The notes beneath the pieces are model-generated. The model was given only the letters and a program-made list of their open reading frames with translations. It searched no databases and was not told the DNA's origin. From NCBI GenBank assembly GCA_017480095.1, contig JAFVBG010000005.1:1-33117 (forward strand): a stretch of 33,117 bases of DNA, in the 5' to 3' direction. Source of the stretch: Candidatus Saccharimonadota bacterium (lineage in GTDB: Bacteria; Patescibacteriota; Saccharimonadia; Saccharimonadales; Saccharimonadaceae). Both the position numbers and the translations under genes were made by a program. The number at the start of each line of letters is the position of its first letter. The first letter of the stretch is position 1. Of the stretch, positions 7,378 to 32,792 are shown piece by piece.

Positions 7378-8148
7378 CTATATGCCTATTGCCTTTTCTT
7401 CTGGGCAGGCATTAAGGATATTCGCCATGGTATCATGCTCGGCTTGCGTCACCCAGAGAGAATACTTGTACTTGACCGAGATTTGGCGAGCGACGTATTG
7501 ACAACGGAAAGCCTTATTGCTCGGTAACCAAGTAGCGGCGTCGCCATCGGACTTCTGCTGATTAGCCGAGCTATCTACGGCAATAAGATTGAGTGGATCT
7601 GTGGCAAGCTGATAACGTTCATCACTAGTCATGTTTTGCGCCCCTTTTTGCCAAGCGTCCGAGAGTGCTACTACATGGTCAATTTGCACCCCAGAAGAAA
7701 TCTGAGATTTTTCGGTGAACTTTTTATACTGCCCCGTATAAGGCTCGACAAAAGAGCCTGCAACCACATTGCAACCATCTAGCACCGCCGAATCGCCAAA
7801 TTCTCGCTTAATAATCAGCTGGCGCAAGCTACATCCGTTCACTGTTGGCCAATTTTTATAAAATTCGGTGCGGACATAATTATTTTTCGGTGCACGCCCC
7901 TTAATTTCCAGCTTTTCTAGCACTCTTACTGCTAGAGTGCTAGTTTCCTCATCAGGGGTGCCGTCAGTGGCTACGCCTAGAGGTTCAATCGTCGTATCAG
8001 AGGTGGCGGGCGTTTCACTAGCATTTTCCTGCACAAAAACCGTCTCGTAGCTAGCAGGATTAAAAATCACCCAAGCACCAACAGCCGCCAGAGCCGTCAA
8101 TTCCGCAATTAGCCGGCGGAGGCGGAGATTAGAATTGCGTGTTCCCAT
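7378..8148 (-). CDS. Secreted/membrane-anchored DUF1524 (HNH-type) nuclease
   Basis: The C-terminal ~150 residues match the DUF1524/HNH-like nuclease family seen in secreted actinobacterial proteins. Key segments are GVQIDHVVALSDAW with the Asp-His pair, NQQKSDGDAATWLPSNKAF with the Asn, and CQYVARQISVKYKYSLWVTQAEH. Residues ~12-32 form one hydrophobic helix, with a Thr/Glu-rich linker after it, so the nuclease should act outside the cell. Paired Cys residues (NGCSLR, DGCNVV, FRCQY, NACPEE) fit disulfides. The start at 8148 is 6 nt from TATTAT. In an organism that may depend on a host for nucleotides, an external nuclease for scavenging or DNA uptake is plausible but unproven. Confidence 0.87.
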   Translation of the reverse strand: MGTRNSNLRLRRLIAELTALAAVGAWVIFNPASYETVFVQENASETPATSDTTIEPLGVATDGTPDEETSTLAVRVLEKLEIKGRAPKNNYVRTEFYKNWPTVNGCSLRQLIIKREFGDSAVLDGCNVVAGSFVEPYTGQYKKFTEKSQISSGVQIDHVVALSDAWQKGAQNMTSDERYQLATDPLNLIAVDSSANQQKSDGDAATWLPSNKAFRCQYVARQISVKYKYSLWVTQAEHDTMANILNACPEEKAIGI

Positions 8149-23410: not shown

Positions 23411-23416
23411 ATTATA
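23411..23416 (-). promoter_or_regulatory. -10 box of the PIN-TRAM gene overlapping an upstream stop codon
   Basis: TATAAT (minus strand) ends 7 nt before the ATG at 23403. Its last bases also form the TAA stop of the phosphoketolase C-terminal gene (23412-23414). Confidence 0.5.
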
Positions 23417-24668
23417 TCATATCTATACCATTTTGCAATGCAAAGGCGTGATTATCGCGTATCATCTGACGGTATTTTTCTGCTAAATCCGGACGGCCAA
23501 GCACGTCTGCCGCCTCGGCCGCCAAGTCAAAACGCGAAGCGTGGTTCAGTGTCAACATCTCTAGTGGTGTAGTAGTGCTACCCTGTTCGGAAAAACCATG
23601 CGCCAAAACCCGTCGCCCATCGGTATAGTTACTCAGAATTGTCTTTAGAGTATGCGCATAGCCATGGAAATTCGCAATAATTGGACAATTTTGTCCAAAA
23701 TAGCGGTCAAAAGTTGCTTGCGAGAAATGATGATCTGCCGTGCCGATAGCGCCGTGAGTAAGTGCGGTGATGCCGATAAAACGAATCCGAGCGGAAGGAA
23801 TATCGGTCTTAATCATTTCTGCAGCCATGATTGCCTCGCGCGAGACGATATCACCCGCAGCCGTCAAGACTAAATCTGGTGTTTCATCTTCGGAGATATT
23901 AGAAACAAAGCCAAAAATACTAGCTCCACCGTTCTGATATTGAAAATCAGCGTGATTTTTGTCGATAAATCTCGGTTCATCGGTCTTATTAAATGTTGTA
24001 AGATTTGCAACATTTTCTGAACTGAGCATGAAGTCAAAGGCGGCAGTAGCGGCGACATCATCAACTGGGAAGAGGCAGTTGACTTTATTGGTCGGCACAT
24101 CGAGCAAGGTCGAAATTAGGGCTGGAGATTGGTGCGAGAAGCCGTTGTGATCTTGTCGCCAGCAGGTAGAAGTACTGAGTAAGTTGATGGCAGGAAAGGC
24201 GTCCGTCCGCCACTCCGTTTCATCAATCTGTTTCAAGAACTTCAAGTGTTGAATGAGCTGCGAGGCGATGATTTCAAAGAAGGATTCGTAGGATGTCATG
24301 AAGGCTGGTTCGCGAGAGCCGAGGACGTGGCCGACCATGGCGGCGAAGAGTGTGTTCTCAGAAAGCAGCTCGACAATTCGTCCATTGGCAGATTCTGGCA
24401 AATCCCAAGCCCGTGTCGGCAAGACCCAAGCGCGTGATTGCTCAGCATAAGCCGCGTCGAGTTTGTTGCTCGTGGTTTCATCTGGCGAGAAGAGGTAGAG
24501 GTGTGGGTTGCGCAACATTTCCGCACGCAAGCAATCACCAATCCGCTTAGCTGGCGAAAAGTACTCGCCGCCTGGATTCTCAATCACCTCTGGCATTTCG
24601 TCCAGATACCGCCGTTTTGGAGAGTTTTCCACAGGTTTTTCCACAGGTTGAACAGGGGTAGTGGTCAT
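23412..24668 (-). CDS. Phosphoketolase, C-terminal half
   Basis: Phosphoketolase cleaves xylulose 5-phosphate or fructose 6-phosphate with phosphate to acetyl phosphate. This 418-aa protein holds the pyrimidine-binding and C-terminal domains. Matching segments are LYLFSPDETTSNKL, SYESFFEIIASQLIQHLKFLK, LSTSTCWRQDHNGFSHQSP, VVLTAAGDIV-like DLVLTAAGDIVSREA, NFHGYAHTLKTIL and GSTTTPLEMLTLNHASRFDLA. The usual SEHQC motif reads SENTL, keeping the Glu but not the His, so activity may differ. Its ATG overlaps the TGA of the N-terminal gene (ATGA). The first ~35 residues are a new N-terminus with a Pro/Val-rich stretch. Confidence 0.85.
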   Translation of the reverse strand: MTTTPVQPVEKPVENSPKRRYLDEMPEVIENPGGEYFSPAKRIGDCLRAEMLRNPHLYLFSPDETTSNKLDAAYAEQSRAWVLPTRAWDLPESANGRIVELLSENTLFAAMVGHVLGSREPAFMTSYESFFEIIASQLIQHLKFLKQIDETEWRTDAFPAINLLSTSTCWRQDHNGFSHQSPALISTLLDVPTNKVNCLFPVDDVAATAAFDFMLSSENVANLTTFNKTDEPRFIDKNHADFQYQNGGASIFGFVSNISEDETPDLVLTAAGDIVSREAIMAAEMIKTDIPSARIRFIGITALTHGAIGTADHHFSQATFDRYFGQNCPIIANFHGYAHTLKTILSNYTDGRRVLAHGFSEQGSTTTPLEMLTLNHASRFDLAAEAADVLGRPDLAEKYRQMIRDNHAFALQNGIDMI

Positions 24669-25693
24669 TTCGTGATAAATCCTTTCTCGGCGTCAAAAAC
24701 TTCGTCAAAATGATACGATTTTAGCCAACGCTCCAGTAATTTTAGCTCTTCTAGATCCGTCTTCGGATTCTTAATCGGGATTTGATGGGCAAGGAAATTG
24801 CCAGCAATCTTCTGACCACGCACCATAGTCGGGCCGGTCGCACCTTTTTCGGACTTAAAAATGAAAAACGGATTACGGATATGGCTATCTGGACGAAACT
24901 CATGCTTATAAATCGCCGTAGAATTGTCTTCGACCGGAGCGAGCGCTGGCGCGAGGGCGTTTTGAAAGATTTCGGGGTCGTCACCGTCGATAAAAATCGG
25001 CGTAAAGCCAAAGCCGCGAATCAACTCCGACAACTCCCGCGTAGATTTACGAGCGGCGATAGTTGGCGCAGAAATTTTGTAACCATTGAGATGCAAAAAC
25101 GGCAGAACTCGACCATTTGGACTCTTGCCCGTCTCCGGCTCGCCAAAGAGCTTGACTAGATTCATCGAGGCTAATGCTGTTGCCGTCTCAAACTCTCCGT
25201 CACCGATCAAAACAGCGACGGTCTTCTCTGGGTGCCCCAGTGCCGCGCCATAGGCCGTGCCGAGTGCATACCCTAATTCCCCACCTTCGCAAATCACATC
25301 TGGCGTCATTGGCGAAGCATGGGACGGAAAACCACCAGGCCAAGAGAAATTGCGACAGATATAAGCTAGGCCGTCCAAATCATGCGTGGCGCGTTCATCT
25401 ACTTCAGCCAATCTACCGTCGAGATAAAGGTTGGCCTGAAGAGCTGGAAAACCATGCCCAGGACCGAGCACGAAGGTAAAATCATTATCAAGTATCGCGC
25501 GAAGATTAGAATAGACCACATTAATTCCGTGGCAAGTTCCCCAGTGGCCGAGCAGGCGCGGCTTGATGTCTTTCGGGTCGAGTGGACGTTCTAGTAAGAA
25601 GTTATCTTGCAAGAAAAGCTGGGCGACGACAAGGTAATCGAGCGTCTGATAACGACGTCGTATCTGCTCAAAATCAATGCCCACGTGATACAT
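24665..25693 (-). CDS. Phosphoketolase, N-terminal half
   Basis: This 342-aa protein corresponds to the thiamine-diphosphate-binding N-terminal domain of phosphoketolase. It carries FLLERPLDPKDIKPRLLGHW with GHWGT, GPGHGFPALQANLYLDG, FSWPGGFPSHASPMTPDV, GGELGYALGTAYGAALGHP, LIGDGEFETATALASMN with the ThDP GDGE motif, FLHLNGYKISAPTIAARKS and IDGDDPEIF. It stops at TGA after GFITK, exactly at the border between the two domains, and overlaps the next gene by 4 nt (ATGA). Standard enzymes are one chain of ~790-825 aa; here the halves sum to 760. A promoter and two CIRCE operators precede it. Confidence 0.87.
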   Translation of the reverse strand: MYHVGIDFEQIRRRYQTLDYLVVAQLFLQDNFLLERPLDPKDIKPRLLGHWGTCHGINVVYSNLRAILDNDFTFVLGPGHGFPALQANLYLDGRLAEVDERATHDLDGLAYICRNFSWPGGFPSHASPMTPDVICEGGELGYALGTAYGAALGHPEKTVAVLIGDGEFETATALASMNLVKLFGEPETGKSPNGRVLPFLHLNGYKISAPTIAARKSTRELSELIRGFGFTPIFIDGDDPEIFQNALAPALAPVEDNSTAIYKHEFRPDSHIRNPFFIFKSEKGATGPTMVRGQKIAGNFLAHQIPIKNPKTDLEELKLLERWLKSYHFDEVFDAEKGFITK

Positions 25694-25741: not shown

Positions 25742-25768
25742 TTAGCACTTTCACATATAGGGTGCCAA
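25742..25768. promoter_or_regulatory. CIRCE-like operator, degenerate copy
   Basis: TTAGCACTT, 9-nt spacer, GGGTGCCAA. It matches the HrcA operator consensus TTAGCACTC-N9-GAGTGCTAA at 8 of 9 and 7 of 9 positions, with the exact 9-nt spacing. It lies 11 bp upstream of the phosphoketolase -35 box. Confidence 0.7.
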
Positions 25769-25806: not shown

Positions 25807-25833
25807 TTAGCACTCTAGTGTGCCGAGTGCTAA
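25807..25833. promoter_or_regulatory. CIRCE operator (HrcA binding site), perfect copy
   Basis: TTAGCACTC, spacer TAGTGTGCC, GAGTGCTAA: a perfect match to the CIRCE consensus. It lies 65 bp from the degenerate copy and directly after the stop codon of the MMPL gene. HrcA normally represses chaperone genes (groESL, dnaK) through this site. No chaperone gene is nearby. Confidence 0.9.
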
Positions 25834-31096: not shown

Positions 31097-31173
31097 GGTC
31101 CGGTAGCTCATCTGGTTAGAGCACGAGCCTCTTAAGCTTGGTGTCGTGGGTTCGAGTCCCACCCGGATCACCA
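31097..31173 (+). tRNA. tRNA-Lys(CTT), partner of an integrated element
   Basis: Acceptor stem GGTCCGG/CCGGATC (one G-T pair), D arm GCTC/GAGC, anticodon stem CGAGC/GCTTG around CTCTTAA (anticodon CTT), T arm GTGGG-TTCGAGT-CCCAC, and encoded CCA. The 3' 58 nt lie inside the frame of the convergent serine recombinase gene, which reads through the tRNA in antisense. Confidence 0.93.
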
Positions 31174-31185
31174 ACAGGGGAACCT
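31116..31185. mobile_element. Putative left attachment junction of an integrated element in tRNA-Lys
   Basis: The recombinase gene abuts and enters the 3' part of tRNA-Lys, and the following sequence up to the window end belongs to no recognised chromosomal operon. This is the typical position of an integrase next to its attachment site. The other junction is not in the window: I see no second copy of the tRNA 3' end to 33117. The exact crossover point cannot be read from this sequence. Confidence 0.5.
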
Positions 31186-32774
31186 GTGGAAAACTCAGGT
31201 TCGAAGATGAAATTAAATGGTGATTTATATCTGTAAATCACCCTTTTTTGTGCATCAATTTCGAGGTTCTTTAGCCTATTTCTGACCAAAATGTCCTTTT
31301 CGACGAGATCTCCTTTTTCTAATCTGTTAATTAGCGAATTTAGCGAGTTCGAAAACTTTTCGATGGTCATGCGCAATTTTTCAGGATTCTTGATTTTGGC
31401 TTCAATTTGCTTGATTCTTTCGTCGATATTTACAACATCATTTTGCAAATCCGCCATGTCCTTTTTGAGCTTGTCCTTGACGGCTTTTGGCGACTCTTTG
31501 TCGAGTTCGGCATACTTTTCCGCTAAGTCGTCAATTTTTCTTTGTTTCTGTGTTTTCTGGCCGAGTAGCTCGTGTTTCTCGACGGTAAACTCCTGCATCT
31601 TTTTATTCGCGTATTCGCTCATATCGTCGACAAAGCTTGTAAAATCGTATTTCTGGCTGATACGGCCGAATTCCTCGTAGAGTTGGTCCATGATGACATG
31701 CATGCGTATATTGTTATTTGGACGCGTGCAGGCCTTGTTATGGCATCGATAGTTGAGGTAATACGTGCCAGAGTGTCCGCGGTTTCTAGCCGGAATCATA
31801 TAATGGCCACATACCGAGCATTTGATAAGGTGGCGGAATGGTAAGAAGTATTTGCCATGTGTGGCTTTCTGGTTTTCATAGCAGGAGGATTGGATTGAAC
31901 CACGGTCTTTTCTAAACATCTTCTGGACCTGGTCGAATTCTTCTTCGGTTACCATTGGTTTGAAGTTTGGCGTTACTACGCGTAAATCTACGTAGTTGCG
32001 GCCTTGTTCCAAAATTCCGTAGTAGAACGGATCGTGGAAGATGCGGTTTGCGGTACTTTCGCAGACGCCGTAGCTTCTGACGTGCTTGTTTCGGCGCGAT
32101 AGTTTCGTAGAGCGTTCTACGTTGTTCATCTTCCAGTAGCGGTAGACTTCCATTTGTGACGCGCCATTAAGAATCATTTGCCAACCTTTCTGGATCATCT
32201 TGAAGTTCTTGTCTGGCTTGTAATAACCGGATACGTCGTCTCTAATATAGCCCCACTTTGGCATGCCGCCGGATTTACCTTGTTCGAGGTTAGAATCGAC
32301 ACCGCGTTGCACACTTTCTGACAAATGCTCTGAGTATTGCTTTGAAAGCGCAAAGAGCATATTTAGCGTCAGCTTGCCGCTTGAATCGTTATGGAATTCA
32401 AAGGTTGGGAAACGTAGGTCTTTGATAACTCCGTTATCGACCATATCGACAACCATTCCGGCTTCGAGCGAATTACGCGATAAACGGTCTGGGTGCCAGG
32501 CGAGAATGGCATCGTATTTGCCTTTCTCGATATCTTTTAGCATTTGTGAGAAAAGCGGGCGGTTGCCGGATTTCTTTGCCGACTTAGATTCCTGGATCGG
32601 TTCGCCAACTAGAAGCAAACCATGATTATTCGCATATTCTTTGCAATCTGCGATTTGGTCTGGTAATGATTTGGCTTGAGCTTCGGCATCTTCGGAAGAT
32701 TTACGCACGTAGAGTACGTAGCGTAATGGTTTCTGAACTATACCGCTACTCGCATTAATTAACGCTCTATTCAT
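31116..32774 (-). CDS. Large serine recombinase (integrase)
   Basis: Large serine recombinases integrate and excise mobile DNA through a Ser-linked intermediate. The resolvase domain (residues ~15-150) has YVLYVRKSSED with the probable nucleophilic Ser, SLPDQIADCKEYA and AWHPDRLSRNSLEAGMVVDM. A recombinase domain follows (GGMPKWGYIRDD, STANRIFHDPFYYGIL), then a zinc ribbon (CSVCGHYM and CHNKAC) and a coiled coil (~residues 385-480). The last ~25 residues (VGDPGGTRTHDTKLKRLVL) are the antisense translation of tRNA-Lys. I chose ATG at 32774 (552 aa); a TTG at 32792 would add six residues. Confidence 0.9.
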   Translation of the reverse strand: MNRALINASSGIVQKPLRYVLYVRKSSEDAEAQAKSLPDQIADCKEYANNHGLLLVGEPIQESKSAKKSGNRPLFSQMLKDIEKGKYDAILAWHPDRLSRNSLEAGMVVDMVDNGVIKDLRFPTFEFHNDSSGKLTLNMLFALSKQYSEHLSESVQRGVDSNLEQGKSGGMPKWGYIRDDVSGYYKPDKNFKMIQKGWQMILNGASQMEVYRYWKMNNVERSTKLSRRNKHVRSYGVCESTANRIFHDPFYYGILEQGRNYVDLRVVTPNFKPMVTEEEFDQVQKMFRKDRGSIQSSCYENQKATHGKYFLPFRHLIKCSVCGHYMIPARNRGHSGTYYLNYRCHNKACTRPNNNIRMHVIMDQLYEEFGRISQKYDFTSFVDDMSEYANKKMQEFTVEKHELLGQKTQKQRKIDDLAEKYAELDKESPKAVKDKLKKDMADLQNDVVNIDERIKQIEAKIKNPEKLRMTIEKFSNSLNSLINRLEKGDLVEKDILVRNRLKNLEIDAQKRVIYRYKSPFNFIFEPEFSTGSPVGDPGGTRTHDTKLKRLVL

Positions 32775-32792
32775 AGTTTTAGAACACGACAA

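Follow-up and report, generated by a model that had tools for sequence, protein, structure and literature searches.

The window analyzed here, a stretch of 33,117 nucleotides from a Candidatus Saccharimonadota assembly, carries on its minus strand two overlapping genes that together encode the domains of a phosphoketolase. The alpha gene (24665–25693, minus strand) encodes 342 amino acids with the XFP_N, or PP, domain (Pfam E 7e-91), and the beta gene (23412–24668, minus strand) encodes 418 amino acids with the XFP (PYR) and XFP_C domains (E 1e-43 and 3e-39); both assignments draw on Pfam, AlphaFold, and Foldseek. The phosphoketolase domain order XFP_N, XFP, XFP_C is present, far above cut-off, but it is spread over two genes rather than held in the usual single polypeptide of ~780–845 residues. 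The genes share an ATGA stop/start overlap (24665–24668, minus strand), and a Shine–Dalgarno-like site for beta, AAAGGA (24680–24685, minus strand), lies within the last alpha codons. The initial annotation had described this pair of frames with its shared ATGA, and both sets of coordinates proved exact; it had also placed the break at a domain border after the thiamine diphosphate (ThDP) part, and Pfam and alignment to solved phosphoketolases agree in locating it between the PP (ThDP pyrophosphate) and PYR domains. In the alignment, alpha matches residues 16–350 of 9cd3 and beta residues 383–786; against the 799-position NCBIfam model the matched positions are 19–348 and 392–771, and neither half reaches the curated NCBIfam cut-offs for phosphoketolase. 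Split-gene transketolase likewise has its PP and PYR parts on neighboring genes, but in the window pair XFP domains dominate and the transketolase domains themselves (PF00456, PF02779, PF02780) were not recovered, Transket_pyr scoring only 21.2 bits where the cut-off is 27. The ~35 extra N-terminal residues noted for beta are real, but they do not amount to a separate domain: roughly the last 10 can be aligned with relatives, most of which begin at that point, and the first ~17–20 residues of the tail are unaligned, modeled with low confidence, and predicted to be disordered, so that the candidate domain was rejected.

The catalytic and cofactor residues considered (H64, H97, H142, H320, GDGE, E479, H548, N549, H553, and K605, in Bifidobacterium longum numbering) are all carried by the window proteins. 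Alpha holds H50, H80, H125, and H303, the equivalents of the first four, together with the GDGE Mg-ThDP motif; beta holds the remainder as E104, H174, N175, H179, and K228. H64, H142, H320, and H553, which the titles of PDB mutant entries identify as residues mutated in Bifidobacterium structures, correspond to alpha H50, H125, and H303 and to beta H179, and the cofactor glutamate is E104. The statement that both halves keep family motifs extends to nearly all of the 115–116 split loci compared: GDGE, HQ, SPDET, and RQDHNG..HQ are kept in every one, LSEN in 115 of 116, GHWG in 112 of 115, and FPSH, the H142 motif, in 109 of 115, leaving six alpha chains in which it is unmatched. Estimates of dN/dS were 0.04–0.14 in the few unsaturated pairs, most species pairs being saturated, and function is, on this comparison of sequences, under constraint. 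The initial annotation had also remarked on the change of SEHQC to SENTL in the second half. That change is real, but it is not peculiar to the window, since it occurs throughout the clade, in single-chain sisters, and in 9cd3. The presence of SEN in sister lineages with an intact gene, and in 9cd3, dates the replacement of SEH to before the split; and with the cofactor-binding glutamate (E104, the E479 equivalent) intact beside it, SENTL was rejected as a sign of inactivity.

The initial annotation had proposed looking for the same split in related genomes, where it is found genus-wide and in sister genera. The second half is present in 95 of the 100 genomes sampled from the window's genus, as a frame of ~380–450 amino acids (one contig-end fragment excepted), and of the five that lack it, four are less than 80% complete. 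Every locus examined in the genus is split save one apparently re-fused copy. Junctions were read in 117 loci, of which 108 are split and 9 intact, all 9 lying outside the window's genus. The exact ATGA recurs in 76 of the 108 split loci and GTGA in 2 more; the remaining overlaps are mostly of 7, 8, 11, 16, or 23 nucleotides, with apparently no overlap in three loci (L036, L044, and L096). Across species these overlaps place beta in both alternative frames, and alpha and beta are adjacent wherever the contig permits reading. Most of the genomes compared are metagenome assemblies. A scan of genome contigs with a single sequence returned no matches, but an alignment-based scan of GTDB contigs did find relatives; those with names belong to Candidatus Saccharibacteria and come from rumen, sheep ileum, goat duodenum, buffalo gut, and horse feces, and a further one is probably from termite gut, going by its isolate name.

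Outside this clade the single chain prevails. Sampling 151 genomes of the family, 294 of the order, and 380 of the phylum returned otherwise only single frames of ~770–930 amino acids, bar a handful that are shorter, lying at contig edges, or otherwise irregular, and in the other Saccharibacteria, Patescibacteria, and other phyla sampled the gene is mostly a single one of ~790 amino acids. A further 67 loci, most of them in other phyla, include 64 with an intact gene and 2 that lack the first half in the stretch retrieved; the last, a Paraburkholderia record (L143), looks split or frameshifted with a long overlap.

A gene tree of 72 phosphoketolases, built by a quick method, places every split locus within a single clade (support 100) and requires four changes of state in all. 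The single-chain relatives share a conserved linker of ~40 residues, GFG...LP....RMG.N.HA.GG...L.LP, recognized in 24 loci by pattern match and in 3 more (L054–L056) by eye. Among 116 split loci this pattern is unmatched in 115, with a lone pattern match in L068. The distance separating the PP domain from FSPDE, counted from the domain's end, has a median of 87 residues in single chains versus 49 in split ones; in the window it is 74, the beta N-terminus being longer. Because the linker is gone and the spacing is shorter in split loci, the fission reads as a cut plus the loss of a conserved segment. Nested within the split clade are four single-frame loci, one in the window's genus (genome G426, locus L199) and three (L049, L052, and L214) in genus g9. 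None of the four retains the ancestral linker; their own linkers are unlike it and, for the most part, unlike one another. The simplest reading of this history is that the gene split once and was then re-fused at least twice, with unrelated linkers; the copy in G426, in particular, is best read as a re-fusion because the ancestral linker is missing. Since the lost segment is conserved in single-chain relatives, its removal may have altered the enzyme in some respect.

Both halves are modeled with confidence (AlphaFold pLDDT 81 for alpha and 89 for beta), and their top Foldseek matches are all phosphoketolases. The closest solved relative is the single-chain phosphoketolase of a Candidatus Saccharibacterium (9cd3/9cd4), which has the same domains and the same SEN motif, with structural-alignment identities of ~48% to alpha and ~38% to beta; it differs in being one chain of 799 residues, with 32 residues between the regions matched by the two window proteins. 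The Bifidobacterium, Lactococcus, and cyanobacterial enzymes (3ahc, 3ai7, 6gua, and 8io8) likewise share the domain order and catalytic residues, but they are single chains of ~790–845 residues, and copies of one chain associate as homodimers or in larger complexes. In known phosphoketolases, which are dimeric, the active site sits at the interface between subunits (PMC5315409), and in the cyanobacterial enzyme TPP lies at that interface (PMC10365998). The best non-phosphoketolase match of alpha is 6yak, titled in the PDB "Split gene transketolase, active alpha2beta2 heterotetramer"; it belongs to the same superfamily and has two kinds of subunit divided at the same PP/PYR border, but it is a transketolase catalyzing another reaction, with ~18% identity and no XFP domains. 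The interface active site of known enzymes, the confident models, and the match to 6yak are the grounds on which an alpha2beta2 assembly is proposed; for the window pair this state is predicted by analogy with 6yak. The least certain stretches of the models include alpha 117–138, which holds the H125 loop, and beta 174–177, the H174/N175 loop, as would be expected if these active-site loops become ordered on assembly.

The reading we favor, with a probability of roughly 0.85, is that one fission with loss of the linker produced a pair of coupled genes for a putative alpha2beta2 phosphoketolase. An ancestral single-chain Saccharibacterial gene would have split once between the PP and PYR domains, losing the ~40-residue linker. 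Two alpha chains (PP) and two beta chains (PYR and C-terminal) would then assemble into a unit that mimics the usual homodimer and binds Mg-ThDP wherever alpha meets beta. Going by its family, the enzyme would cleave xylulose-5-P and/or fructose-6-P with phosphate to acetyl-phosphate and an aldose phosphate, and acetate kinase would make ATP from the acetyl-phosphate. The fuller claim, that the assembly is obligate, arose by one fission with linker deletion, has been re-fused at least twice, and is the lineage's only enzyme of the transketolase superfamily, also seems likely.

The metabolic setting bears on that last element. No transketolase was found in the window's genome, and because of this the phosphoketolase appears to be its sole transketolase-like enzyme. 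Transketolase is common in the family and is itself split there, at the same domain border as phosphoketolase: all six transketolase loci read (L229–L234) consist of two adjacent genes, of 276–288 and 310–332 amino acids, two of the pairs overlapping by 4 nucleotides. None was found in the split-phosphoketolase lineages or in single-chain sister genera such as g10, g25, g30, and g40, the weak transketolase matches in split genera being the phosphoketolase itself. Because the single-chain sister genera also lack it, transketolase was probably lost before the phosphoketolase was split. The absence of transketolase from the split lineages and those closest to them, together with the lost linker and the change of SEH to SEN, could be taken to mean that the halves no longer make up a phosphoketolase, one or both having acquired a different role, or that they act mainly in transketolase-type C2 transfer in place of the missing enzyme. 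We consider this unlikely, given that the four residues probed by mutation (H64, H142, H320, and H553) are kept in nearly all members, that two re-fusions restore the same domain order, and that acetate kinase occurs in 54 of 60 genus members, the copy of the window's genome lying on another contig (G000:C3:41115–42248). As a separate observation, acetate kinase scores in genus g1 form two groups, at ~490–506 and 240–295 bits, which suggests two sources or lineages within one genus.

How beta is translated may be read from the junctions. A Shine–Dalgarno-like match of at least 4 bases precedes beta in 97% of 96 loci, versus 18% at random alpha positions. Glycine codons at the 3' end of alpha are GGA or GGG in 91 of 107 cases versus 1041 of 2826 elsewhere in the gene (p = 1e-23, a value that treats species as independent, which they are not). 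From this enrichment and codon bias we infer that translation of beta is coupled to that of alpha, and coupled re-initiation would keep the two chains at about the same level. A rival reading is that programmed -1 frameshifting by the ribosome at the ATGA makes a full-length fusion, the separate beta being a minor product. The ATGA overlaps would suit it: beta lies there in the -1 frame, where slippage ahead of the stop codon would fuse alpha to beta. As a conserved mechanism such frameshifting is rejected because the overlaps among species use both frames (those of 8, 11, and 23 nucleotides put beta in the other one); the conserved linker is gone, moreover, and beta has its own start and Shine–Dalgarno site in nearly all loci, which leaves the frameshift very improbable. 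A sequencing or assembly frameshift, or recent pseudogenization of a single gene, might be suspected from the single frame of G426 and from the reliance on metagenome assemblies, but it has next to no probability given the same break in ~100 independent genomes with conserved overlap, Shine–Dalgarno site, and catalytic residues, and given that G426 lacks the ancestral linker and is best taken as a re-fusion. Judged by the loci compared, the split is neither sequencing error nor decay, and the view that this is a stable form has held up.

Two further known systems resemble the window pair in part. In Thermoproteus tenax, tktA and tktB (PMC3189178) carry the N- and C-terminal parts of transketolase on two genes, as here, but that enzyme is an archaeal transketolase encoded in an aromatic amino acid cluster. 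T. rhizospherense, also of the Saccharibacteria, has a phosphoketolase with a neighboring acetate kinase and the same inferred route to acetyl-phosphate, acetate, and ATP (PMC6031116); its phosphoketolase is described as one enzyme, and its acetate kinase is adjacent, whereas that of the window's genome is on another contig. The phosphoketolases in the papers and structures found are all single chains, and no report of a split or two-subunit form was found in the literature searched, most subscription journals being outside its scope; the two-gene phosphoketolase is likely new to the literature. About a hundred sampled species with the two-gene form, a fixed overlap, and re-fusions amount to a natural experiment on the separation and rejoining of the domains of a ThDP enzyme, and the smaller subunits could serve enzyme engineering. 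There is also a gap in annotation: because neither half reaches the NCBIfam phosphoketolase cut-offs, a main energy-yielding step in these gut symbionts may go unrecognized.

Upstream of the operon lie a perfect CIRCE, the HrcA operator (25807–25833, no strand assigned, 0 mismatches), and a second, imperfect CIRCE-like site (25742–25768, no strand assigned, 3 mismatches). The window contains 3 CIRCE-like sites versus 0.01 expected, and an HrcA gene is present in the genome. Heat-shock control of the operon would be specific to this species, because CIRCE occurs upstream of phosphoketolase in only 2 of 147 related loci and is not conserved in the clade. The third site (7917–7943, 2 mismatches) falls inside an open reading frame with a GmrSD_C domain (7378–8148, minus strand), which suggests that the start of that frame may be further downstream. 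Near the contig end, at 31116–32792, a large serine recombinase with Resolvase, Recombinase, and zinc ribbon domains is possibly part of a mobile element.
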